From a virus: a stretch of 20,904 bases of DNA. Positions within the stretch are counted from its first letter, which is position 1; every line of letters begins with the position of its first letter. Below, one piece after another: positions 32 to 18,528 of the stretch. The notes under the pieces are model-generated. The model made no database searches. It saw only the letters and a list, made by a program, of their open reading frames with translations, and was not told the origin of the DNA. The stretch lies in the IMG/VR virus record IMGVR_UViG_3300045999_005958, positions 1 through 20,904 of that record, one strand, 5' to 3'. The position numbers were made by a program, and so were the translations under genes.

Positions 32-103
32 AGCGGAGTATCGGATTCGAACCGACGACATCTAACTTGGAAGGATAGCGTTCTACCACTGAACTAACTC
101 CGC
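32..103 (-). tRNA. tRNA-Gly (anticodon TCC)
   Basis: A full cloverleaf can be drawn on the minus strand: 7-bp acceptor GCGGAGT/ACTCCGC, D-arm with AGTGGT loop, anticodon loop CTTCCAA giving TCC, and a T-arm with a canonical TTCGAAT loop. The anticodon stem contains one T-T mismatch. No CCA is encoded, so the 3' end must be added by the host enzyme. It is the last tRNA of the cluster in the direction of transcription and probably belongs to the unit started by the promoter at 205-233. Confidence 0.95.
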
Positions 104-108
104 AATGT

Positions 109-177
109 GAGAGTGGAAGGTTTCGCATCCTTCTACCGTATCCCTTGTCGGGGTGCCTTACTTTTGGCATCACTCTC
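109..177 (-). other. Structured tRNA-like element in the leader of tRNA-Gly
   Basis: Read on the minus strand, a 7-bp terminal stem GAGAGTG/CACTCTC encloses three hairpins: TGCC/GGCA, a short CCC/GGG, and GAAGG/CCTTC with an 8-nt loop. The length (69 nt) and 7-bp closing stem mimic a tRNA. There is no acceptable anticodon arm and no TTCRA T-loop, so I do not call it a tRNA. It could be a decayed tRNA, a processing signal or a small structured RNA. The fold is seen directly; any function is unknown. Confidence 0.45.
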
Positions 178-204
178 AGCACTTCACTTCACACGGAAGT
201 ATAT

Positions 205-233
205 ATTTTAAAATAATATCCCTATTTTGTCAA
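205..233 (-). promoter_or_regulatory. sigma70-like promoter for the structured element and tRNA-Gly
   Basis: Minus strand TTGACA (228-233), 17-bp spacer, TAAAAT (205-210). Transcription would start near 198 and run through the structured element into tRNA-Gly. Confidence 0.7.
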
Positions 234-270
234 CCCCTAAAATATTAATGGTTAAAAATATGAATATTAA

Positions 271-352
271 CGGAAGAGACAGGGGTCGAACCTGCAAAGC
301 TTTTACACCCAACCGTTTTCAAGACGGCTTCCTCACCATTCGGATCTCTTCC
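271..352 (-). tRNA. tRNA-Ser (anticodon TGA)
   Basis: Class II tRNA with a long variable arm. The acceptor stem is GGAAGAG/CTCTTCC, the anticodon loop CTTGAAA gives TGA, and the T-arm has a GGTTCGACCCC-type sequence. No CCA is encoded. A promoter at 364-392 lies so close that the primary transcript would begin only about 5 nt before the mature 5' end. Confidence 0.95.
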
Positions 353-363
353 AGATATTTAAA

Positions 364-392
364 ATAATAAGACATAATGAGTATTATGTCAA
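364..392 (-). promoter_or_regulatory. sigma70-like promoter for tRNA-Ser, overlapping the end of tRNA-Thr
   Basis: Minus strand TTGACA (387-392), 17-bp spacer, TATTAT (364-369). The -35 box includes the base that serves as discriminator of tRNA-Thr (392), so the promoter begins inside the upstream tRNA. Confidence 0.7.
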
Positions 393-463
393 GCCCCCGA
401 CTGGATTTGAACCAGCGACCAACGGTTTACAAAACCGTTGCTCTACCACTGAGCTACAAGGGC
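392..463 (-). tRNA. tRNA-Thr (anticodon TGT)
   Basis: Cloverleaf on the minus strand with acceptor GCCCTTG/CGGGGGC (two G-T pairs), D-arm AGCTCAGTGGTAGAGC, anticodon stem ACGGT/ACCGT with loop TTTGTAA giving TGT, and T-loop TTCAAAT. No encoded CCA. It is preceded by a hairpin-rich leader at 470-538. Confidence 0.95.
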
Positions 464-469
464 AACTAG

Positions 470-538
470 CGGGGGTGATCAAGTCCCCGACCTAAGAAAA
501 CTTAGGATTTAGTGAGTCGGATATGATGATCCCGACTC
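470..538 (-). other. Three consecutive hairpins upstream of tRNA-Thr
   Basis: In minus-strand order there is GAGTCGG/CCGACTC (514-538, 11-nt loop), CCTAAG-TTTT-CTTAGG (491-506) and CGGGG/CCCCG (470-489). All three stems are perfect. There is no T-tract, so this is not an intrinsic terminator. No complete tRNA cloverleaf can be drawn, because no acceptor stem fits. It would be transcribed from the promoter at 580-608 as the leader of tRNA-Thr. Function unknown. Confidence 0.45.
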
Positions 539-579
539 TTATGAAAGACCCAGACATTTCCAGACCTTCCAAGATTTAT

Positions 580-608
580 ATATTACCTCATCTTCAAATG
601 TTTGTCAA
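580..608 (-). promoter_or_regulatory. sigma70-like promoter inside the 3' end of the HNH gene
   Basis: Minus strand TTGACA (603-608), 17-bp spacer, TAATAT (580-585). The TAA stop codon of the HNH endonuclease gene (583-585) forms the first half of the -10 box, so the promoter is embedded in the coding end. Confidence 0.7.
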
Positions 609-1158
609 GTTTCCCTTGCTCCCGCATTATTCTTTTCCTTATAGCATTATCACTGCAATTAAATAATCTTCCAGTTCCAGTATATCCGTGTTTTTTAACC
701 AAGGAAATTAATTCATTCAAAGGTGGATAATCTCTTGTTCTAGCAGCAGAAGCACACTTGTTTGAGCAATATTTTTGAGTTGTTAGTTTTTGCGTTCCGC
801 ACTGAGGACAATTATCTTTTTCTTTAGGTGTTGCTTTATTAGCATAGTCCCACTCCGCATAACTTTCATCAAATCTAGTAATATTTTCTGGAATATTAGT
901 TACTCCAGCATGAACTTCACGATGACAATTTGAACATAAACAAACACATTTACGAAGTTCGGAGGAAAGTATTTCCCAAGATCTAGTTACTCCACCCATA
1001 GATGGATTAAAAATTTTTTCTTCTGGATTTATATGATGAAAATCTAACGCCTGAACACACTTATCATAACCACATATGCCACATTTAGATCCAAATGCTT
1101 TTGTAGCATATGTTTTTGCTCGTTTTCTGTAGTAAGAAACTGCTTCTTTATTAGACAT
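583..1158 (-). CDS. HNH homing-type endonuclease
   Basis: A 191-aa protein with a zinc-bound HNH nuclease core: C26-x2-C29, HHxN at 41-44, and C75-x2-C78-H with a further H83, the usual order for this superfamily. A second Cys4-like cluster (CPQC, then YCSNKC) lies around residues 117-135. A C-terminal helical region (NELISLVKKHGYTGTGRLF and after) looks like a helix-turn-helix used by intron-type and free-standing homing enzymes to contact DNA. It sits among tRNA genes, typical of a mobile endonuclease exploiting conserved sites. A TATAAATA late promoter lies 33 bp before the ATG and there is no clear Shine-Dalgarno. The specific target is unknown; the family call is firm. Confidence 0.88.
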   Translation of the reverse strand: MSNKEAVSYYRKRAKTYATKAFGSKCGICGYDKCVQALDFHHINPEEKIFNPSMGGVTRSWEILSSELRKCVCLCSNCHREVHAGVTNIPENITRFDESYAEWDYANKATPKEKDNCPQCGTQKLTTQKYCSNKCASAARTRDYPPLNELISLVKKHGYTGTGRLFNCSDNAIRKRIMREQGKLDKHLKMR

Positions 1159-1190
1159 TTCTAACCAACAACTATAATATTATTTATAAA

Positions 1191-1198
1191 AATAATAA
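1191..1198 (-). promoter_or_regulatory. T4-type late promoter (TATAAATA) for the HNH gene
   Basis: Exact TATAAATA on the minus strand, 33 bp upstream of the HNH start codon and just downstream of the tRNA-Asn 3' end. It matches the T4 late consensus and the NATAAATA reported for cyanophages. Confidence 0.65.
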
Positions 1199-1206
1199 CT
1201 TATAAA

Positions 1207-1279
1207 CTCCACTCCTAGGTACTGCCCCTAGCAATCTCCGATTAACAGTCGGGCCCGTTCGCTTGCTCGGTCGAGTGGA
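1207..1279 (-). tRNA. Aberrant tRNA-Asn (anticodon GTT)
   Basis: Spacing is fully canonical on the minus strand: 7-bp acceptor TCCACTC/GAGTGGA, two linker bases, D-arm CCG/CGG, anticodon stem CCCGA/TCGGA (one mismatch) with loop CTGTTAA giving GTT, 5-nt variable loop, 5-bp T-stem CTAGG/CCTAG, and G discriminator. The T-loop is GGCAGTA instead of TTCRANN, and the D-loop AGCAAGCGAA lacks the GG pair. The normal elbow contacts are therefore absent or replaced. It may be a functional divergent tRNA, a pseudo-tRNA or a decoy. The Asn identity is supported by the anticodon and G73; the activity is uncertain. Confidence 0.65.
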
Positions 1280-1310
1280 ATACTAACAGGGGTGTTGCCA
1301 CCCCACAAAA

Positions 1311-1508
1311 TCACTTAGAACTTACAAAGTTATTAATCTTTTCTGCAAGTTGTTCAATCTTTTCATAAGAAGGAAATGGAGGATAATTCCATTTAGTCTC
1401 ATTATTTTGGTTGTGATTATCAACTACATTATAAGCAGCAAGATACTCATCATTAGCGTGAGCATATGCTTGCTTAAAAATTTCAAACCGTAATTCGTAA
1501 GGCGTCAT
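1311..1508 (-). CDS. Small hypothetical protein, 65 aa
   Basis: A short ORF between tRNA-Arg and tRNA-Asn, preceded by a good Shine-Dalgarno (AGGAG, 6 nt before the ATG at 1508). The product is acidic to neutral, begins MTPYELRFEIFKQAYAHAND, has a Trp/Pro-rich middle (WNYPPFP) and ends in a helix. No signal peptide or membrane segment and no family that I can name with certainty. Its position inside the tRNA transcription unit implies expression with the tRNAs. The leader upstream (1560-1625) holds a perfect GGAGA-ATTTA-TCTCC hairpin and a TATAAT, but no matching -35. Confidence 0.7.
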   Translation of the reverse strand: MTPYELRFEIFKQAYAHANDEYLAAYNVVDNHNQNNETKWNYPPFPSYEKIEQLAEKINNFVSSK

Positions 1509-1624
1509 AGTTTTACTCCTATGTGTGTGTTTGTGTGTTTGATGGAGTAAGTGTGATATACCTCATAAGGATATAACAGTGACTTACCCTCTATCATATT
1601 ATATATGGAGATAAATTCTCCAAG

Positions 1625-1698
1625 CGTCTCAGGTTGGATTCGAACCAACGACTAACCGCTTAGAAGGCGGATACTCTTGTCCACTGAGTTACTGAGAC
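1625..1698 (-). tRNA. tRNA-Arg (anticodon TCT)
   Basis: Minus-strand cloverleaf with acceptor GTCTCAG/CTGAGAC, anticodon stem CCGC/GCGG around loop CTTCTAA giving TCT, and T-arm GTTGG-TTCGAAT-CCAAC. No encoded CCA. It reads the AGA codon, which is common in this AT-rich sequence. Confidence 0.95.
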
Positions 1699-1724
1699 AT
1701 TATGGAAGAATAAGATCTTCCAAG

Positions 1725-1796
1725 TAGGACTGCGGAGAATTGAACTCCGTTCACACCGTTATAAGCAGTGGGCCTTAACCAATAGGCGACAGTCCC
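1725..1796 (-). tRNA. tRNA-Ile (anticodon TAT)
   Basis: Minus-strand cloverleaf with acceptor GGGACTG/CAGTCCT (first pair G-T), anticodon stem CACTG/CGGTG with loop CTTATAA giving TAT, and T-loop TTCAATT. It reads AUA directly, a codon frequent in AT-rich phage genes and poorly served by many hosts. First tRNA after the promoter at 1883-1912. Confidence 0.93.
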
Positions 1797-2837: not shown

Positions 2838-2967
2838 TAAAATTAATTGAACTCTACATCCGTATAGAGAAAGGGGTATACTTCCTTTCCAAGAAGCAAT
2901 CTCCACGGCTCTGATTGTCACATCACAGACTCATAATAATTACCTTGCTCATAACAAGGATTTTTCC

Positions 2968-2996
2968 ATCATAAGTTTTTATTTAGGTTTTGTCAA
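2968..2996 (-). promoter_or_regulatory. sigma70-like promoter for the tail-lysozyme gene
   Basis: Minus strand TTGACA (2991-2996), 17-bp spacer, TATGAT (2968-2973). The downstream leader contains a CCTTG/CAAGG hairpin and tiny ATG-stop frames before the gene. Confidence 0.7.
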
Positions 2997-3012
2997 GTAT
3001 GATAAGTTCTTC

Positions 3013-7828: not shown

Positions 7829-8500
7829 TTAACCTTTTTTCCAAGCTTCACCTTCTGCCTTTCTCCTACGTGCCAATCCTGCTTCTACATTAGAACCCGG
7901 ATTTCTGTAGAGATAAAGCGCATCGGGAACTAAATCCCACTCTTTATTCTTCAAGCGTTTAGTAATAGTATTAAAGTTATCACCACCGTAAAAACCGGCA
8001 CCAAGATTATAAGCAAAGCTGAGCAGAGCGCCTCTTTTTCCATCTGTCATTTCATTCCAGTGTGGGATTTTACGAAGTGAAGGAAGAAACTGATTCTTAC
8101 ACTGACTAATCAGTAGTTCATCTGCTTCTTGTTGTGTAATTTGATCTCCGAGTTGGAATGGTCCACCATCCTTCTTACGAGTAGAACCCCAACCAATTGT
8201 GATTGGAAGACCACCAGAAAGAGGATCTGGATATGCTTTAAGATGGCATCCTTCAAACTCTTTGATGAGTTTTATTCCCATCATAGGCATATCGTCACCA
8301 CCTGCTACAGGAGCGGCAGCAGTTGGTGTTGATGCTGGTGCCGCATTACCCTTTTTTCCCCTATAAATCTCCGCCCAATCAATATTATCTTCTAGATACT
8401 TGACTGGAAGATTATCTTCCAACCATTGAACTGCCTTAACATGGTTAGGATTCTTTTCGTCGTAAAACTTAAAAAAGTTATGAAGATCAATTCTTGCCAT
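7829..8500 (-). CDS. GH24 lysozyme-type endolysin with N-terminal accessory module
   Basis: A 223-aa enzyme from the ATG at 8500, chosen because GGAGG lies 5 nt upstream; a longer frame opens at 8512. Residues 76-223 are a T4/P22-type lysozyme: IKEFEG with catalytic E83, AYPDPLSGG with D92, and TIGWG with T101, followed by the SFAYNLGAGFYGG and GLARRRKAE blocks. It hydrolyses the MurNAc-GlcNAc bond. Residues 1-48 are a separate module (DLHNFFKFYD, NHVKAVQWLEDNLP, DWAEIYR) nearly identical to that of the upstream C39-like protein, joined by an Ala/Pro/Thr linker (APASTPTAAAPVAGG). No signal peptide, so it needs the holin-like protein encoded next. Confidence 0.88.
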   Translation of the reverse strand: MARIDLHNFFKFYDEKNPNHVKAVQWLEDNLPVKYLEDNIDWAEIYRGKKGNAAPASTPTAAAPVAGGDDMPMMGIKLIKEFEGCHLKAYPDPLSGGLPITIGWGSTRKKDGGPFQLGDQITQQEADELLISQCKNQFLPSLRKIPHWNEMTDGKRGALLSFAYNLGAGFYGGDNFNTITKRLKNKEWDLVPDALYLYRNPGSNVEAGLARRRKAEGEAWKKG

Positions 8501-8624
8501 TTTTACCTCCAAAGTATTTTAGATAGAGTTCGTTTGCTTCAATATGTTTTCCATTATTTGTAAGTTCTTTGATGACTTTAAGCATCTTTGCTTTAAATCT
8601 AGTCGAAGATTCTTCCCCAGCCAT
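8487..8624 (-). CDS. Small hypothetical protein between two lysis enzymes, 45 aa
   Basis: I chose the ATG at 8624 because a perfect AGGAGG lies 5 nt upstream; an adjacent ATG is too close to it, and a longer frame to 8687 has no support. The product MAGEESSTRFKAKMLKVIKE, followed by LTNNGKHIEANELYLKYFGG, is a compact charged helical hairpin ending in GKNGKN. It overlaps the C39-like gene by 26 nt and the endolysin gene by 14 nt. The strong ribosome site implies high expression. No function recognised; an endolysin regulator would fit the position. Confidence 0.65.
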   Translation of the reverse strand: MAGEESSTRFKAKMLKVIKELTNNGKHIEANELYLKYFGGKNGKN

Positions 8625-9270
8625 CATTACCTCCTGGACACCAACGGTGCTTAAGAACTGCTTTGGTGTAAATGGTTTTCTTACCATTAGTTACAGGACC
8701 AGTATAGTTGTCATTTAATGAACCGTATGGATCATTTATATAATATCCTTTACCATCTGGTGTCTTGCCGATGACTACACACATGTGTCCACCAGTGGGT
8801 GAAGTTAGAGAACCTCTGTGGAGAATACCAATAACAACTGGCTTACCTCTATCAAGGCTTTTATCAATATCACTAAAACTAAGATTATAACTAAAATGGG
8901 ATTTAATCCCATAACCAGACAGAACCTTCGTCTGTACCGCATGGTCGGTTGTATCACCGATAGCAAATACTTTCTTAACGTATTCGTCATCGCCTTTAAT
9001 GCTACCTGGCTTCAGAAAAGCAAGGCACATGGCACACGACGAACTGTTACAAGTTCTTTGTGCGTCTCTGTAGTTATCTACTTGATTGAAGTATGGAACA
9101 TCAAGAACTGCTGGGGTGGGTGGTTTGGTTCTAAAAAGTCCAATCCAATCAGTTTCTGAATCGTCAAGGAATTGAGCAGGTAGGTTATCTTCTAACCATT
9201 GAACTGCTGCCACATGATTATCATTAGCGTCATCATAAAATTTAAAAAAGTTATGAAGGTCTAGAGTCAT
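8599..9270 (-). CDS. C39-like cysteine peptidase with the same N-terminal module
   Basis: A 223-aa protein with GGAG 6 nt before the ATG. Residues 1-47 repeat the module of the endolysin (DLHNFFKFYD, AVQWLEDNLP, DW, FR). Residues 55-223 look like a papain-fold C39 peptidase: VPYFNQ, then QRTCNSSSCAM with nucleophile probably C79 and oxyanion Gln71, GGHMCVVIG with H162, and YYINDPYGS with N179/D180 as the third member. C39 domains cut at Gly-rich sites, or in stand-alone phage forms probably cut peptidoglycan cross-links. Found in a lysis operon, a wall-peptide endopeptidase is the best guess; a bacteriocin-type processing role is less likely because no transporter is present. Confidence 0.8.
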   Translation of the reverse strand: MTLDLHNFFKFYDDANDNHVAAVQWLEDNLPAQFLDDSETDWIGLFRTKPPTPAVLDVPYFNQVDNYRDAQRTCNSSSCAMCLAFLKPGSIKGDDEYVKKVFAIGDTTDHAVQTKVLSGYGIKSHFSYNLSFSDIDKSLDRGKPVVIGILHRGSLTSPTGGHMCVVIGKTPDGKGYYINDPYGSLNDNYTGPVTNGKKTIYTKAVLKHRWCPGGNDGWGRIFD

Positions 9271-9460
9271 CTTCTTCTCCTATGTATTCTAATGAAAAAA
9301 TATTATGATCTTCAATTTTAGGGTCTAACCATTCAATAAATTCTTTTTGAATTGCGTATGCATTTTGGTATTCGTGTTCTTCATTTATATCACAAAGAGT
9401 ATGAATGCGATCAATTGCCCAATCGTGGGTTAAACGAAGAGTTTCAACCAAAGTTACCAT
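9251..9460 (-). CDS. Small acidic hypothetical protein, first gene of the lysis operon
   Basis: A 69-aa acidic helical protein (MVTLVETLRLTHDWAIDRIH, NEEHEYQNAYAIQKEFIEWL, then EYIGEEDDSRPS) with no signal peptide or membrane segment. It lies first after the promoter at 9495-9523 and overlaps the C39-like gene by 20 nt. The ribosome site is weak. Function unknown. Confidence 0.65.
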   Translation of the reverse strand: MVTLVETLRLTHDWAIDRIHTLCDINEEHEYQNAYAIQKEFIEWLDPKIEDHNIFSLEYIGEEDDSRPS

Positions 9461-9494: not shown

Positions 9495-9523
9495 ATTGTA
9501 GTACGCAGGGGTTCCATCGTCAA
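9495..9523 (-). promoter_or_regulatory. sigma70-like promoter for the lysis operon
   Basis: Minus strand TTGACG (9518-9523), 17-bp spacer, TACAAT (9495-9500), 35 bp upstream of the first gene. No late-type NATAAATA was found at the head of this operon, which is unexpected for lysis genes. Confidence 0.75.
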
Positions 9524-9558
9524 GTGACTCTACCAATATATTATTTAGGAAAAATTTT

Positions 9559-9607
9559 AAAAATATTTTCAAACATAAATAAAAATTATAAGGTAGAAAA
9601 TATTTTT
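9559..9607 (+). repeat. 12-bp inverted repeat framing the late promoter of a GIY-YIG gene
   Basis: AAAAATATTTTC (9559-9570) and GAAAATATTTTT (9596-9607) are perfect reverse complements. The 25-nt interval holds the CATAAATA promoter and an AAGG. The right arm ends one base before the ATG at 9608. RNA started upstream would fold the initiation region; RNA started at the internal promoter would lack the left arm. Confidence 0.7.
9574..9581 (+). promoter_or_regulatory. Late promoter (CATAAATA) for the plus-strand GIY-YIG gene
   Basis: NATAAATA on the plus strand, 27 bp before the ATG at 9608 and inside the loop of the inverted repeat. Its position favours the 9608 start over the open frame that begins at 9524. 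Confidence 0.6.
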
Positions 9608-10309
9608 ATGGAATGGAAATATAACGAGGAAGACTTTATTGAGGTCCCAAAAAATATGGAAGGATTTGTATATCTAATTACAAATTTAACAAATGAAAAA
9701 AAATATGTAGGCAAAAAACACTTCTGGTCTCGACAAAAAGATAAAAAAACAGGAAGAAGAAAAAAGAAAGAAAGTGATTGGAGAAATTATTATGGTTCTT
9801 GCGACGAACTAAAAGAAGATATTAAATTACTTGGGAAAGAAAATTTTTTAAGAGAAGTGCTTTACATCTGTCCCCATAAGAAATCTATGTCTTATTATGA
9901 AACTTATGAACAATTTAAAAGAGACGTATTAATGACTGATGAATATTATAATACAAATATTGAAGGTAGATTCTTTGTTAGTGAAAGAGCAGGAATATAT
10001 GAAGTCGTTTTAAGAAACGATAAGTATAGAGAAGACAAAAGAAAACTTATGACTGGTGATAACAATCCTGCAAAAAGACCAGAGGTTAGACAAAAATTAA
10101 GTGAGATGTTTTCTGGTGAAGGAAACCCTATGTATGGAACAACTCTTGCCAAAGAACATAAGGAAAAACTTTTAAATTCCAGAAGAAATGAAGTTACTGA
10201 TGGATCTAAAAGTTGGTTAAGTGTAAATGAATGGATGAAAGATAATAAAGCAGGATATCAAAAATACAAACAACAATTAAAAGACGGTTTGATCTGGATA
10301 AAAAGTTAG
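9608..10309 (+). CDS. GIY-YIG homing-type endonuclease
   Basis: A 233-aa protein from MEWKYNEEDF; the frame is open from 9524, but the late promoter lies inside that extension. GIY-YIG core: GFVYLITN (GIY equivalent) and KKYVGKKHFW (YIG equivalent), then basic DNA-binding stretches (KKTGRRKKKESDW) and a Glu-bearing helix (SYYETYEQF). Two NUMOD3-type repeats follow: GDNNPAKRPEVRQKLSEM and GEGNPMYGTTLAKEHKEKL, which bind DNA in Seg/I-TevI-like enzymes. It is an isolated plus-strand gene between two minus-strand operons, and its stop overlaps that of a 36-aa GIY-like fragment. Free-standing mobile endonuclease. Confidence 0.85.
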   Translation: MEWKYNEEDFIEVPKNMEGFVYLITNLTNEKKYVGKKHFWSRQKDKKTGRRKKKESDWRNYYGSCDELKEDIKLLGKENFLREVLYICPHKKSMSYYETYEQFKRDVLMTDEYYNTNIEGRFFVSERAGIYEVVLRNDKYREDKRKLMTGDNNPAKRPEVRQKLSEMFSGEGNPMYGTTLAKEHKEKLLNSRRNEVTDGSKSWLSVNEWMKDNKAGYQKYKQQLKDGLIWIKS

Positions 10310-10464: not shown

Positions 10465-10494
10465 ATTCTAGCAATAAAAGGGGGGACTTGTCAA
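10465..10494 (-). promoter_or_regulatory. sigma70-like promoter overlapping a terminator
   Basis: Minus strand TTGACA (10489-10494), 18-bp spacer, TAGAAT (10465-10470). The -35 box lies in the loop region of the terminator hairpin of the upstream gene. Confidence 0.5.
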
Positions 10495-10501
10495 GACCCC
10501 C
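10472..10501 (-). terminator. Intrinsic terminator after the 395-aa gene
   Basis: Minus strand GGGGG, inner CTT-GAC-AAG extension across a T-T mismatch, CCCCC, then CTTTTATT. Stop codon of the 395-aa gene lies 21 bp upstream. Confidence 0.7.
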
Positions 10502-10521: not shown

Positions 10522-11709
10522 TCACCAAAGAGGTTCATCTCTCATAGGTGCTTGTGGTTTTCTTTGTGGTTGTGGAATTGGTTTTTTCACTGATGTTTCT
10601 GGACCGTCCCAAAGAGGTCCATCTTTATAGGGCTTACCATCACCAGGTTTAGTGCTATATCCACCAGAAGGAATATTTCTTTTTATAATTTGAGATCCTG
10701 TTCTAATAGTATTTGAAACAGATGGATTGTTTAATGTTTTTTTAATAATACCAGCACCAGTTTTAATTGCATTTCCAATTGGATTTGGTCTATAATTATC
10801 TCCACCGATAGTTTCAACAATATTTTGAATATAATTAGAATCCATTTGCATCATTACATAATTTGCCTCTTCAATAGTATCCACATGTCCAGTATCAAAA
10901 AGATATTCTAAAACAAGATCATATGCATCATATTCGTAAGATTGTCTTAAAGTAGTTGTCATTTTACTAGTGTTAAATGTTGGAATGTTTCTTTTTTTAA
11001 CTTCTGCTTCAATTGATTTTGCAGCAGATTGACTCGCAGGTTGAATTCTTTGAACAGCAGTATCAGTCTTTACTTTTGAGGGTGAAGGAGTAGATACTTC
11101 TGAGGAAGAAGTTTTTGGAGCAGGAAGTCTACTCTTTAAATCTGCCATTTGTGGATTAGTTGTTGCACTTGTTCCACGAGTTCTTTCCCTTTCGGCAGCA
11201 GCGGCAGCAAGTTTTGGATTTGCTAATGCCCATGTTGCCTTGCCAGTTGCTTCGGCACCTTTAATATCACCCATCTTTATTTGACGTTTATAAACTTCCG
11301 ATCCACCTTTTATTTTTTCTGCAGTTGATGCAGTTGCCGATGAAGTTTTTGGTTGAGTTGGTGTTGGTTTTGCTGCTTTTGGTTTTGGAGACGGTGCTGG
11401 AGAAGTAGATGATGGTGCAGTAGACTGGGGAGGTTTTGGTGGTGTTGAAGGAGTTGATCCAACACCTTTTAACCTTTGTTTCTCTGCTTCAATTTGTGCT
11501 TGTCTATCTTTATTTCTTTTTTCTGCAGCAGAAAACTTTGCTGGGTCCAAATATTTTAAAGCAGACTGTGGAACTTTTTCTTTCGGAATCCAAGTTCCTG
11601 GAATTGGTTTTCCAGTTTTTGGATCAATCATAACTGCACCAAGTTCACCCTTTTGGCGAGCAATTACTGGTCTTGAACCGCTTTGTTCTTTTATATTGCC
11701 AGAATTCAT
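10522..11709 (-). CDS. Late low-complexity protein with DLV motif, 395 aa
   Basis: Residues 85-220 are a Pro/Ser/Thr/Lys/Ala-rich disordered region (STPSTPPKPPQSTAPSSTSP and more). Residues 256-300 are an ordered acidic block: YDAYDLVLEYLFDTGHVDTI, then EEANYVMMQMDSNYIQNIVE, related to residues 188-228 of the next gene product. Before the disordered part there is a DPKTGKPIPGTWIPKEKVPQ segment. The tail has repeated GPLWDGP and RDEPLW motifs. A TATAAATA promoter lies 19 bp before the ATG and a terminator follows, so it is a single-gene late unit. Late timing and structure suggest a virion or internal-head protein. No family named. Confidence 0.7.
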   Translation of the reverse strand: MNSGNIKEQSGSRPVIARQKGELGAVMIDPKTGKPIPGTWIPKEKVPQSALKYLDPAKFSAAEKRNKDRQAQIEAEKQRLKGVGSTPSTPPKPPQSTAPSSTSPAPSPKPKAAKPTPTQPKTSSATASTAEKIKGGSEVYKRQIKMGDIKGAEATGKATWALANPKLAAAAAERERTRGTSATTNPQMADLKSRLPAPKTSSSEVSTPSPSKVKTDTAVQRIQPASQSAAKSIEAEVKKRNIPTFNTSKMTTTLRQSYEYDAYDLVLEYLFDTGHVDTIEEANYVMMQMDSNYIQNIVETIGGDNYRPNPIGNAIKTGAGIIKKTLNNPSVSNTIRTGSQIIKRNIPSGGYSTKPGDGKPYKDGPLWDGPETSVKKPIPQPQRKPQAPMRDEPLW

Positions 11710-14123: not shown

Positions 14124-14283
14124 AGTTTACATCATCAGTTTTTTTACCTAACCATTCTGTCTCATAGTCATAATCCCCAAACAGAAACTCATCTGCTTCT
14201 GCTGCATTCTTATATGCATTTATGATATCTTGTTCCACCCATTCATCATAATTGGAATCATCTTTGAGTATTTTAGGGTTCAT
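14122..14283 (-). CDS. Small acidic hypothetical protein, 53 aa
   Basis: ATG at 14283, TGA at 14122-14124. The product is acidic and rich in Asp, Glu and aromatic residues: MNPKILKDDSNYDEWVEQDI, then INAYKNAAEADEFLFGDYDY, ETEWLGKKTDDVN. It overlaps the end of the GIY-YIG gene by 11 nt and runs into the terminator hairpin, so it is the last gene of the primase-nrdA-nrdB unit. The overlap suggests the endonuclease gene settled immediately upstream of an older gene. No function recognised. Confidence 0.65.
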   Translation of the reverse strand: MNPKILKDDSNYDEWVEQDIINAYKNAAEADEFLFGDYDYETEWLGKKTDDVN

Positions 14284-15004
14284 TTATAGTCCATCCATTT
14301 CTTCTTGGTCCAGTTCTATTGTATTTAACTGCGGCAGACATAGTTGCATATGAAATATTATGTAACTTACAAAATTGTTTTAATTTACCAACAATTATAT
14401 ATTCTTGCCCATCTGGAGAAATAAGTTTCCATTTTTTTGCTGATGGTGATAAGAAACCTTTTTCATATCTTTGTTTTGCTTTATCGCTTATTTTTCTTTT
14501 TCTTTCTTCACTACAAGGAACACCGTAACTTGGATTATTTTTTCCTGCTACTTTTTCACTTATTTTTTTCTTGGTTTCTTCTGTATGTTTTTTTGGACCA
14601 TATCCACCCGATTTAATTTGTAGATTTCTTCTCTTTTCTATTTGTTCCTCCCATTTATCTCCATATATTTCTTGATATGTACGACCTTTATGTTTTGGCG
14701 GTCTAGAACTTTCGCAAATGTTAGTTAGTATTCCATTTTCATCATATCTTGATCTACCATATTTTTTTATTAATTGTTCTTCATAAACATAAGCATCATT
14801 TTCATTCTCAAAATATTCTACTATTTTGATTTCTGGTTCATATCCTTCTTTTCTTATTTTTTGTATTTTGTTGAACTTTCTTTCATTATCACTCTTTGCT
14901 CTTGATTTCTCAGACAAATGAAAATAGACCCTATCGTTTTTTCCCTTTCCAACATAGAAAGGAAGATTAACTCTAGGGTCTATTAATTCATAAACATAAT
15001 ACAT
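14273..15004 (-). CDS. GIY-YIG homing-type endonuclease next to nrdB
   Basis: A 243-aa Seg-type enzyme. GIY-YIG core: YYVYELIDP (GIY position) and PFYVGKGKNDR (YIG position plus the catalytic-type Arg), with a Glu in the YVYEEQLIKKYG helix. NUMOD3-type DNA-binding repeats follow: KKHTEETKKKISEK and GKNNPSYGVPCSEERKRKIS. A C-terminal module WKLISPDGQEYIIVGKL, then FCKLHNISYATMSAA, resembles the helix-turn-helix repeat of intron-type endonucleases. It sits directly after nrdB; T4 carries mobE and I-TevIII at nrdA/nrdB, so this locus is a known homing hotspot. It has a sigma70-like and a late promoter inside an inverted repeat. No clear Shine-Dalgarno. Confidence 0.88.
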   Translation of the reverse strand: MYYVYELIDPRVNLPFYVGKGKNDRVYFHLSEKSRAKSDNERKFNKIQKIRKEGYEPEIKIVEYFENENDAYVYEEQLIKKYGRSRYDENGILTNICESSRPPKHKGRTYQEIYGDKWEEQIEKRRNLQIKSGGYGPKKHTEETKKKISEKVAGKNNPSYGVPCSEERKRKISDKAKQRYEKGFLSPSAKKWKLISPDGQEYIIVGKLKQFCKLHNISYATMSAAVKYNRTGPRRNGWTINEP

Positions 15005-15008
15005 AAGT

Positions 15009-15058
15009 AAGAAACTGAACTCTAATAGTATTTATATAATATTATATTTCAGTTTCTT
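15009..15058 (-). repeat. 11-bp inverted repeat framing the promoters of the nrdB-linked GIY-YIG gene
   Basis: AAGAAACTGAA (15009-15019) and TTCAGTTTCTT (15048-15058) are perfect reverse complements, 28 nt apart. Between them lie a -10 TATAAT and a TATAAATA. The promoter-distal arm covers bases -5 to -15 before the ATG at 15004, where a ribosome would bind. RNA read through from nrdB can form the hairpin; RNA started in the loop cannot. Confidence 0.75.
15029..15036 (-). promoter_or_regulatory. Late promoter (TATAAATA) for the nrdB-linked GIY-YIG gene
   Basis: Exact TATAAATA on the minus strand, 25 bp before the ATG, within the inverted-repeat loop. Confidence 0.75.
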
Positions 15059-15069
15059 GTAATTGTCAA
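15041..15069 (-). promoter_or_regulatory. sigma70-like promoter at the nrdB stop codon
   Basis: Minus strand TTGACA (15064-15069), 17-bp spacer, perfect TATAAT (15041-15046). The TGA stop of nrdB (15066-15068) forms part of the -35 box. Confidence 0.75.
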
Positions 15070-16208
15070 AGTTTAAAATCACTAAAAGTATTAGCAGTAA
15101 CATCATGTTTAATTCCACCGACAATGTAAGATTCATTTTCTGTTTCTTGATTGGCGGTTTGAAGTCCCTTAGAAGAGATCCAATGATCGGTCCAAGGGAG
15201 AGGATTATTCTTTGCTGAGATACTATAAAGAGGTTTCAGTCCGATTGCCTTCATTCTACGATTCGCAATCCATTCAACATACTGCTGTAACAGTTTATCA
15301 TTTAATCCAATCATAGAACCGTCCTTGAACAGATACTCTGCCCAGAGTTTTTCCTGATTTACAGCATTCTCAAAGGTCTTGTAGACCCACTGCTCCTCCT
15401 CTTTGGAAATACGTGCCATCTCAGGGTCATCACCTTCCTTCCATTTGTTTAAAATGTTCTGAGTGATTACCAGGTGCTGATTTTCATCACGAGCAATTAG
15501 TGAGATGATTTTTGCACTTCCTTCCATAATCTTGAGTTCGCCAAATGCAAAACTGCAAGCAAAACTGACATAAAAACGAATACCTTCAAGAATATTAACG
15601 TTTGCAACTGCTCTGAACAATTTGCGCTTGAGTTCATACCTTGCCTCTTGTGCGTATGGTACTTGTTCCAATGCGTGAACCCATTCATTTGAATTATCAT
15701 AGTGATGAGCACTATTGATAAAATCATTATATGCCTGAGTCACACTCACGGCACGTTCCATGATACGGTCTTCTTTGAGAATAGTATCAAAAACTTCAGA
15801 TGGGTCTGAATAAACGTTCTTGATAATATAAGTGTACGAGCGAGAATGGATCATTTCCATAAACTCCCATACTTTCATACATGCTTCTAGTTCGGGAAGG
15901 GAACAGTAAGGCGCGAACGCCATACCAGGACCACGACCCTGAACTGAATCCAACATTACCTGATACTTCAGGTTGCTGGTAAAGATGTGTTTTTGTTCTG
16001 GGCGAAGAGATTGATAATCTCCACGATCTTTCTGTAAGGAGACCTCTTCTGGTCTCCAGAAATAACCCAGTTGTTGTGTTGTTAGTTTATCAAAAATTGG
16101 ATACTTGTAAGAATCGTATCTTTGTATTCCCAATGGTTGCCCAAAAAACATAGGTTGCTTTTTGGTATCTACTTCATTAGAGTTAAAAACGGTCATAGAT
16201 TCAACCAT
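15066..16208 (-). CDS. nrdB: Ribonucleotide reductase class Ia, beta subunit
   Basis: A 380-aa protein. I start at the ATG at 16208 because GGAGG lies 8 nt upstream and the sequence then matches phage NrdB beginnings (MTVFNSNEVDT, PMFFG); the frame is open to 16250. The di-iron and radical residues are present: D87 (MLDSVQG), E118 and H121 with tyrosyl-radical Y125 (EMIHSRSY), the Glu of NILEGIRFY, and Glu/His of ARDENQHL. NrdB supplies the tyrosyl radical to NrdA for reducing ribonucleoside diphosphates to deoxynucleotides for phage DNA synthesis. It follows nrdA by 22 nt. Length fits T4 NrdB. No intron is present. Confidence 0.97.
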   Translation of the reverse strand: MVESMTVFNSNEVDTKKQPMFFGQPLGIQRYDSYKYPIFDKLTTQQLGYFWRPEEVSLQKDRGDYQSLRPEQKHIFTSNLKYQVMLDSVQGRGPGMAFAPYCSLPELEACMKVWEFMEMIHSRSYTYIIKNVYSDPSEVFDTILKEDRIMERAVSVTQAYNDFINSAHHYDNSNEWVHALEQVPYAQEARYELKRKLFRAVANVNILEGIRFYVSFACSFAFGELKIMEGSAKIISLIARDENQHLVITQNILNKWKEGDDPEMARISKEEEQWVYKTFENAVNQEKLWAEYLFKDGSMIGLNDKLLQQYVEWIANRRMKAIGLKPLYSISAKNNPLPWTDHWISSKGLQTANQETENESYIVGGIKHDVTANTFSDFKL

Positions 16209-16230
16209 TTTTTTATCCTCCAAACCTGTT

Positions 16231-18528
16231 TTAAATCTTACAAGACTCACAATCTTCCTCCTCTGATTCTAGAATATCGGAAATTAAATTTTCAAGAGAC
16301 TGTTTGGTTTCTTCAACCTCATCAGTCTTATGATCATAAGTGTTTTGATAGTAACTGGTTTTCCAACCGTACTTATATGTAGTCAATAGGTCCTGAGCCA
16401 TTATTGAAGTAGGAACTTCATTATCTGGGTAATTTTCTGGATTATAGGACCAGTTTCCAGAAATCGCTTGATCAAAGAACTTTTGCATAACAGCAACAAT
16501 ATGAATATACCCACGATTGCTAGGCATATCCCACAGAAGCGTATAATTGTTCTTAAGAGTTTGATATTGCGGAACAATTTGCTTAAGTGGACCTTTCTTC
16601 GACTTCTTAATGGACAAGTATCCGCGAGGTGGTTCAATTCCATTGGTTGCATTTGACACAACGGAACTGCTCTCCGATGGCATCTGTGCGGACAATGTTG
16701 AGTTCCGTACACCATACTGCTTAACTTGCTCCCTAAGATTATCCCAATCATACTTCAGTTCATTAGGGACGATTTCATCAACGTCCTTCTTGTATGTATC
16801 AATCGGTAGAATGCCCTGCCCATACTTTGTACGGTGTGAATATTCGCAAGCACCTTTTTCTTTCGCAAGATTGACCGTTGCCTGAATGAGATAATATTGG
16901 AATGCTTCAGTAAGATCGTGAACAAGTTTCCAAGCACCAGGATCATCATAGTGTTCGCCATGTCTTGCGAGATAATGTGCTAGACCAATAAATCCTATAC
17001 CAAGAGAACGACGTGCTCTGGTGGCGATTTCTGCTGCTCTGACGGGATATCCTTGGAAATCAATAAGTTCATCCAGAGAGCGCACAGAAAGATCGCAGAG
17101 AACTTCAAGGTCTTCAAGGTCACGGATTTTACCAACATTAATTGCACTAAGAATGCAGAGAGCGATTTCACCATCAGTATCATCAATATGTTGAAGTGGT
17201 TTAGTAGGAAGAGTAATTTCTTGGCATAGATTACTCATCTCAACTTTATCCAAGAAGGAAGAGTGAGAATTGCAATGATCAATATTCATAATGTAAATAC
17301 GACCAGTTTCTGCACGTTCTTTCAGGAGATCCAGAAAGAGTTCTTGAGCACCGATAGTTTTTCTTGGAATAGATGTATCTCGTTCATAAGATACATATAA
17401 CTCGTCAAATCCATCAGTACCAAAAGCATCATACAGACCAGGAACGTCGTGTGGAGAGAAGAGTGAGATCTCTCGGTTTTGGATAAATCGTTCATAGAAG
17501 AGTTTGCTGATTTGGATACTGTAGTCTAATTTACGAACACGGTTATCTTCAGTTCCTTTATTGTTTTTTAATACTAGGATGTCTTCTATCTCTTGGTGCC
17601 AGATGGGGAAGTGGACAGTTGCTGATCCACCTCGGATGCCATTTTGAGTGCAGCATCGGACAGTTGCTTCAAACTTTTTGAGGAAAGGGACAACACCTGT
17701 GTGCTGTACTTCTCCACCTCTGATTTTAGCGTTGATGCCACGGATGCGACCTGCGTTGATACCGATTCCCGCCCTTTGTGCAACATACCTGCCGATAGCC
17801 ATATCAGAAGTAAAGATGCTATCGAGGGTGTCATCAACATCAACAAGAACACAGCTAGCATATTGTCTAAGCGGTGTTCGCACTCCTGCCATGATTGGGG
17901 TGGGAATGTTGATTTTGTGTTTGGAGATTGCGTCATAGTACTTTTTAACGTAGTCTAAACGTGTTTCCTTTGGATACTTGGAGAAAATGGTTGCCGCAAT
18001 CAAAAGATACATAAACTGTGGCGTTTCATAAAGTGCTCCAGTGCTTCTGTCCTGCACGAGATACTTATCAACGACTTGACGTAAACCTGCATAAGTGAAC
18101 AAATAGTCACGACTATGATCAATAAACGACTGAAGTTTATCAAACTCTTCATCAGAATAGAGGTCCGCAATTTCTGCATCATAAACTCCGTTTTTGATAC
18201 ATTGATCAATATGCTGCTTTACAGTTGGTGCTTCGTGCATACGTCCAAAAATCTGTTTACGAATAGCAAACAGAAGCAAACGTGCTGCTACAAACTGATA
18301 ATTGGGATGGTCTAAATCAATTAAATCCGAAGCAGAGCGAATCAAAATTTCTTGAATCTCTGCAGTTGTAATACCATCATAAAATTGAATACCAGACTGC
18401 ATTTCAACTTGCGATGCAGACACATTTGCGAGGTCCTTACATGCCTCTTCCACCATGACGTGGAGTTTATTTAAATCAAGAGGTTCAGTTTTACCGTTCC
18501 TTTTGACGACTTTCGTTCCGTTGCTCAT
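16231..18528 (-). CDS. nrdA: Ribonucleotide reductase class Ia, alpha subunit
   Basis: A 765-aa catalytic subunit, about the length of E. coli NrdA (761). An N-terminal ATP-cone (KVVKRNGKTEPLDLNKL, residues 6-95) binds the ATP/dATP activity effector. Active site: C226 (YASCVLVD) and C458 (EIALCILS) as the redox pair, N433-L-C435-Q-E437 with the thiyl-radical Cys and catalytic Asn and Glu. The YY pair in KTSYYQNTYD near 727 is in the radical path, and the C-terminal CESC pair accepts electrons from thioredoxin or glutaredoxin. All key residues are present, so it should be active. It overlaps the primase stop by 4 nt (ATGA), with GGAAG 6 nt before the ATG. Confidence 0.98.
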   Translation of the reverse strand: MSNGTKVVKRNGKTEPLDLNKLHVMVEEACKDLANVSASQVEMQSGIQFYDGITTAEIQEILIRSASDLIDLDHPNYQFVAARLLLFAIRKQIFGRMHEAPTVKQHIDQCIKNGVYDAEIADLYSDEEFDKLQSFIDHSRDYLFTYAGLRQVVDKYLVQDRSTGALYETPQFMYLLIAATIFSKYPKETRLDYVKKYYDAISKHKINIPTPIMAGVRTPLRQYASCVLVDVDDTLDSIFTSDMAIGRYVAQRAGIGINAGRIRGINAKIRGGEVQHTGVVPFLKKFEATVRCCTQNGIRGGSATVHFPIWHQEIEDILVLKNNKGTEDNRVRKLDYSIQISKLFYERFIQNREISLFSPHDVPGLYDAFGTDGFDELYVSYERDTSIPRKTIGAQELFLDLLKERAETGRIYIMNIDHCNSHSSFLDKVEMSNLCQEITLPTKPLQHIDDTDGEIALCILSAINVGKIRDLEDLEVLCDLSVRSLDELIDFQGYPVRAAEIATRARRSLGIGFIGLAHYLARHGEHYDDPGAWKLVHDLTEAFQYYLIQATVNLAKEKGACEYSHRTKYGQGILPIDTYKKDVDEIVPNELKYDWDNLREQVKQYGVRNSTLSAQMPSESSSVVSNATNGIEPPRGYLSIKKSKKGPLKQIVPQYQTLKNNYTLLWDMPSNRGYIHIVAVMQKFFDQAISGNWSYNPENYPDNEVPTSIMAQDLLTTYKYGWKTSYYQNTYDHKTDEVEETKQSLENLISDILESEEEDCESCKI

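Follow-up and report, generated by a model that had tools for sequence, protein, structure and literature searches.

Late-only locking of homing endonucleases has been known from a handful of genes of the T4 group. For I-TevI, I-TevII, I-TevIII and segB of T4 and mobE of phage Aeh1, read-through mRNA forms a hairpin that hides the start region, and an internal late promoter gives rise to mRNA without the 5' arm (PMC2988022; PMC3014915). I-TevI also represses itself through an operator over its own late promoter, and early expression of I-TevI is reported to leave T4 viability free of endonuclease-mediated effects (PMC2988022). The I-TevI-type genes of T4 are intron-encoded, receive sense transcription from early/middle operons and have stems described as very stable; T4 segB and Aeh1 mobE are free-standing, and mobE, an HNH endonuclease whose hairpin has been experimentally tested, is associated with nrd genes. 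In seg43(25) of Aeromonas phage 25, a stable hairpin lies just upstream of the ribosome binding site (RBS) of a Seg-type gene and the RBS stays free. A cyanophage late-promoter motif, NATAAATA, has been published (PMC2984593) and a psbA leader hairpin has been described in S-PM2d; in the literature that we searched, we found no report of the promoter-in-hairpin design at cyanophage endonucleases.

Here, we analysed a stretch of 20,904 nucleotides (the window; IMG/VR record IMGVR_UViG_3300045999_005958), a fragment of a T4-like cyanophage for which the nearest named record is S-SRM01. The features that concern us are the following.

9251–9460, minus strand: upstream neighbour of 69 aa, divergent from the 9608 gene
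9558–9570, plus strand: 5' arm of the repeat, TAAAAATATTTTC, forming the outer boundary of the conserved module
9574–9581, plus strand: CATAAATA, which agrees with the consensus of cyanophage late promoters (NATAAATA), with a predicted start site at ~9587
9590–9593, plus strand: putative Shine-Dalgarno (SD)-like AAGG, placed in the loop instead of the stem, 14 nt before the ATG
9596–9608, plus strand: 3' arm of the repeat, GAAAATATTTTTA, extending to the A of the start codon
9608–10309, plus strand: the 9608 gene, coding for a free-standing SegE-type GIY-YIG endonuclease of 233 aa that includes NUMOD3, and running against both neighbours
10522–11709, minus strand: downstream neighbour of 395 aa, convergent with the 9608 gene
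14273–15004, minus strand: nrdB-linked GIY-YIG gene (LEM-3-like GIY-YIG and NUMOD3)
15009–15058, minus strand: nrdB-linked hairpin with 23-nt arms and TATAAATA in the inner stem, the comparison case
15066–16250, minus strand: nrdB, co-oriented with the nrdB-linked endonuclease gene and leading into it

The product of the 9608 gene matched the SegE GIY-YIG domain (PF19835, E = 1.9e-36, above the cut-off) and NUMOD3 (22.2 bits against a cut-off of 20.4, E = 1.4e-4), so that it combines this domain with a DNA-binding nuclease-associated module, and cleavage and homing are predicted for it. Judged by gene order, both neighbours were antisense to the SegE gene in the window and in nearly all relatives, and neither the window nor nearly all relatives placed it in a sense early/middle polycistronic setting. 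An upstream sigma-70 promoter was considered as a source of early read-through and rejected; the best match, at 9517–9544, agreed at 9 of 12 positions, such sites were fewer than in shuffles, and the flank carrying this weak match was not conserved in relatives. On the minus strand, CTAAATA at 9542–9548, ~25 nt from the SegE promoter, may serve the divergent 69-aa and endolysin genes as a late-type promoter, and similar TATTTAG sites recurred in relatives. The convergent gap after SegE held a terminator-like G/C-rich stem followed by a T-rich stretch (10482–10501, minus strand).

The initial annotation had described a perfect 12-bp inverted repeat that encloses a promoter and whose right arm lies next to the ATG at 9608. 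The repeat is real and slightly longer than stated, as 9558–9570 and 9596–9608 are exact reverse complements over 13 bp; the 25-nt loop contains the late-promoter match CATAAATA, and the 3' arm spans the spacer before the ATG (9608–9610) and includes its A, leaving the SD-like AAGG in the loop. The late start site at ~9587 was placed using the spacing between promoter and start in T4. With 12 occurrences against 7.3 expected, ATAAATA itself showed no enrichment in the window. Taken on its own sequence, the repeat was suggestive, modestly beyond chance and weak, because the arms are near-palindromic A/T (AAAATATTTT) and form direct as well as inverted repeats; the best contiguous promoter-enclosing stem (-13.7 kcal/mol) was equalled or beaten by 2 of 200 dinucleotide shuffles, and a looser duplex test was matched by 8 of 300 shuffles. 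Single-sequence folding was dropped as proof of the hairpin, since the minimum-free-energy fold of the lone leader favoured other pairings (z = -1.0) and the predicted late RNA still weakly pairs the start codon with codons 3–6. Apart from one copy with a single mismatch, no third arm copy, a possible site of the enzyme itself, was present in the window.

With family and gene-class comparisons included, the repeat appears clearly non-random. We fetched 80 IMG/VR loci of SegE relatives and read their leaders, in which close full-length relatives retained the order arm, ATAAATA, arm, ATG. When these relatives were aligned on the promoter, mean identity rose from 0.27–0.42 in the flank to 0.83–0.89 exactly from the 5' arm onwards. 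Because identity jumps at precisely this point, we take the 5' arm to be the edge of an inherited unit and to be constrained, even though it belongs to neither the promoter core nor the leader; a T4-type late promoter requires no upstream element. In four relatives the inverted repeat was made of different letters and the inverted match was far better than the direct match: both arms had changed together in L016 and L018 (AATACTTTC/GAAAGTATT), and the arms were AAAATCCTT/AAGGATTTT in L045 and CTTACAACC/GGTTGAAAG in L044. Formal covariation was dropped as proof of the SegE hairpin, as pairing across the clade was no better than in shuffles (85.7% against 85.5%, not significant), and RNAalifold returned no structure for the clade. 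A.C mismatches occurred in L006, L036 and the L013 group, and the L029 group retained a near-perfect direct repeat; counts of G-U against A-C mismatches, tried as a test of RNA-level against DNA-level pairing, were not discriminating by eye. The case for a SegE hairpin rests on the conservation edge, the re-formed arms and the enrichment by gene class described below.

The short SegE genes of cyanophages, such as S-SRM01 gp272, offer a close contrast, as they occupy the same locus in the same opposite orientation and have a homologous N-terminal GIY-YIG domain (72% identity for gp272, 71–77% in the shared domain among short relatives), but lack the arms and the C-terminal tail, are ~140 aa long and carry a TCTAAATA-type site. 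An enclosing stem was found in 8 of 16 long SegE genes and in 1 of 19 short ones (p = 0.004), and on the SegE tree the hairpin state was clustered (3 changes, against 11.7 when shuffled). Comparing locked and unlocked relatives of this kind gives a way to test 'why late?'. The short genes commonly carry the label 'NAD synthetase' (PHROG 447), apparently a wrong one, for example at L164:14397–14828 and in many cyanophage records.

The nrdB-linked gene had been said to share the geometry of the 9608 gene, which holds approximately: its 23-nt arms are 87% complementary and separated by a 4-nt gap, the inner stem holds the promoter, and 4 nt separate the arm from the ATG. This hairpin was strong on folding (z = -3.0). 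Covariation was significant across 25 sequences of its family: 95.1% of cells were paired compared to 91.1% in shuffles and 13 cells showed double changes compared to 4.2, a value reached in none of 500 shuffles; more distant relatives (L129, L132 and L133) had different arms in the same place. With nrdB upstream of it on the minus strand, the gene has the sense-transcript setting of T4, and on this architecture it fits the T4/Aeh1 type of control; like mobE, its relatives are linked to nrd genes. At least four different GIY-YIG families with promoter-enclosing stems were seen at nrdA/nrdB boundaries, in the nrdA–nrdB gap and on the 3' side of nrdB (L081–L133 and L248–L407), which makes these boundaries an apparent hot spot for GIY-YIG genes comparable to mobE. 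In two nrdB-linked relatives from different metagenomes (L106 and L107, ~2945–3000), the promoter-bearing loop was inverted between the arms, so that the late promoter faces away from the gene; an assembly error is possible.

The initial annotation had held that its reading would fall if such repeats were just as common before ordinary late genes or in shuffled controls, and they were not. For each gene preceded at short distance by NATAAATA, we scored stems pairing the sequence before the promoter with that between promoter and ATG against shuffles, using this promoter form only, mechanically called gene starts and a set with near-duplicates removed. At the 1% level, 47/85 GIY-YIG leaders passed the contiguous-stem test compared to 14/377 others (Fisher p = 2e-28), and 30/85 compared to 6/377 passed the duplex-energy test (Fisher p = 6e-19). 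The others were mostly late structural genes, and several of those that passed were HNH or EndoVII-type endonucleases; the feature is not confined to GIY-YIG genes. Some families had been sampled because they were endonucleases, which does not apply to S-SRM01 or to a thymidylate synthase set, and in these two smaller tests the genes were classified after the hits had been seen. In S-SRM01 (~175 kb read), 8 of 11 late-promoter endonuclease genes passed (gp030, gp048, gp066, gp075, gp091, gp114, gp152 and gp207) compared to 2 of 37 others (p = 1.7e-5). In the independent sample, 80 contigs around thymidylate synthase that gave 44 gene families, 8 families were significant and all were endonuclease-like, six with database support by homology or domain and two (L408 and L467) assigned by sequence appearance; the other 36 families gave no significant result. 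Arm sequences were unrelated between families while their position was kept, so the promoter-enclosing design seems to have arisen or been rebuilt many times. These comparisons support shared control over chance, as the initial annotation had suggested, convergent between families and inherited within the SegE and nrdB-linked families, whose arms are conserved. S-SRM01 gp114 (L166:12515–13273), annotated as 'translation initiation factor 2', begins in a GIY-YIG-like manner, contains six NUMOD3 motifs and is probably a mis-annotated endonuclease.

Two geometries were found among these genes. In SegE, the nrd-linked families, gp152 and the EndoVII gene gp207, the 3' arm reached the start region, whereas in gp030, gp066, gp075, gp091, gp114 and most hits of the thymidylate synthase set it stopped 6–16 nt before the ATG, with the SD uncovered and often an apparent terminator also inside the loop. 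Genes with an arm short of the RBS, of which gp030, gp066 and gp091 resemble seg43(25), may act by a mechanism that differs from that of T4. In read-through RNA, opening of the start region was predicted to cost more than in late RNA, by +8.0 kcal/mol in the main GIY-YIG family, +3.9 kcal/mol in long SegE and +1.1 kcal/mol in other genes. For the 9608 gene the difference was small (+3.1; 10.4 compared to 7.3 kcal/mol), and for L001, L016, L023 and L024 it was 8–13 kcal/mol. These modelled energies agree in direction with translation from late transcripts only.

We consider it probable that, at the 9608 gene, the two arms of the repeat pair into an mRNA hairpin that restricts translation to late transcripts. 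The computed results behind this model are the repeat, the promoter match, the conservation edge, the enrichment at endonuclease genes and the nrdB-linked covariation, and from these we infer promoter use, start site, translation block and purpose at this gene. A transcript started upstream would carry both arms, and the 3' arm would pair with the 5' arm and occlude both the spacer and the start codon. The late promoter in the loop would start mRNA at ~9587, and since this is downstream of the 5' arm, no hairpin could form and the endonuclease would be made. As in T4 I-TevI, I-TevII and I-TevIII, a late promoter lies between the arms, the 3' side would cover the translation start, and read-through mRNA would be silent and late mRNA translated; as in mobE and T4 segB, this promoter-in-hairpin plan serves a free-standing endonuclease, although the arms are unrelated to those of mobE and the hairpin is predicted from sequence. 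Unlike in I-TevI, the gene is free-standing, its stem is almost all A/T and, in a departure from the T4 scheme, AAGG lies in the loop; unlike in seg43(25), the arm at 9596–9608 extends to the start codon. The 9608 gene would therefore work like the T4 device without being a full member of that type, because it lies antisense to its neighbours, outside any evident early operon of its own sense, and has AAGG in the loop.

The strongest alternative is a DNA operator, in which the arms would bind the endonuclease or another protein that represses its own late promoter. Autorepression of this kind is established for I-TevI (PMC2988022), and the near-palindromic arms of the window, which are direct as well as inverted repeats, would suit it, as would the L029 group with its direct repeat and a 5' arm conserved even where pairing is mismatched. 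However, L016, L018, L044 and L045 kept inverted complementarity while losing the direct repeat and the symmetry within each arm, and many families have the 3' arm at the start codon, with arms that vary by family in a position that is kept; we regard the operator as unlikely. If the A/T-rich pairing at the 9608 gene were a matter of inheritance or chance and served no function today, with constraint on promoter and leader only, this would account for the A/T arms, the weak fold, the 2/200 of the stem test, the non-significant covariation in the SegE clade and the antisense setting. We judge this quite unlikely, as the sharply conserved 5' arm belongs to neither promoter core nor leader, inverted repeats were re-formed in diverged members and the gene-class enrichment is strong.

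A role in processing or stability, or in blocking antisense transcripts that enter the divergent region, instead of translation control, would be in keeping with the orientation of the 9608 gene opposite to its neighbours and with the many endonuclease genes whose 3' arm, like that of seg43(25), leaves the SD uncovered; it is hard to reconcile with arms that reach the start region in SegE, nrdB-linked and EndoVII (gp207) genes, and we consider it very improbable.

Under late-only translation, the preferred reading, the module of 5' arm, promoter, 3' arm and gene would have been inherited as one unit in the SegE clade. Many other free-standing endonuclease genes in these phages would have acquired the same architecture independently, each with arms of unrelated sequence. 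The mobile gene would then carry its own lock against whatever transcription enters at its landing site.

More tentatively, and at somewhat less than even chances, the promoter-enclosing repeat may be a lock that evolved repeatedly and applies generally to free-standing endonuclease genes (GIY-YIG, HNH and EndoVII) in T4-like cyanophages, borne by the mobile gene and working in any operon and even in antisense insertions. What is new here is that the same anatomy, with unrelated arms, occurs at most late-promoter endonuclease genes examined in cyanophages and rarely at other late genes, a distribution that points to strong repeated selection for the silence of selfish nucleases until late. The description of these endonucleases as toxic in the initial annotation is an assumption. 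If the lock is general, the repeat could provide a sequence signature for finding unannotated or mis-annotated endonuclease genes.

Elsewhere in the window, an Rfam search returned tRNAs only, and five tRNA genes were clustered at 32–1796 (minus strand). Two adjacent lysis-type genes on the minus strand (7829–8512 and 8599–9270), encoding a lysozyme and a C39-like peptidase, were alike over an N-terminal stretch (DLHNFFKFYD...), which suggests that a duplication or a shuffling of domains took place.
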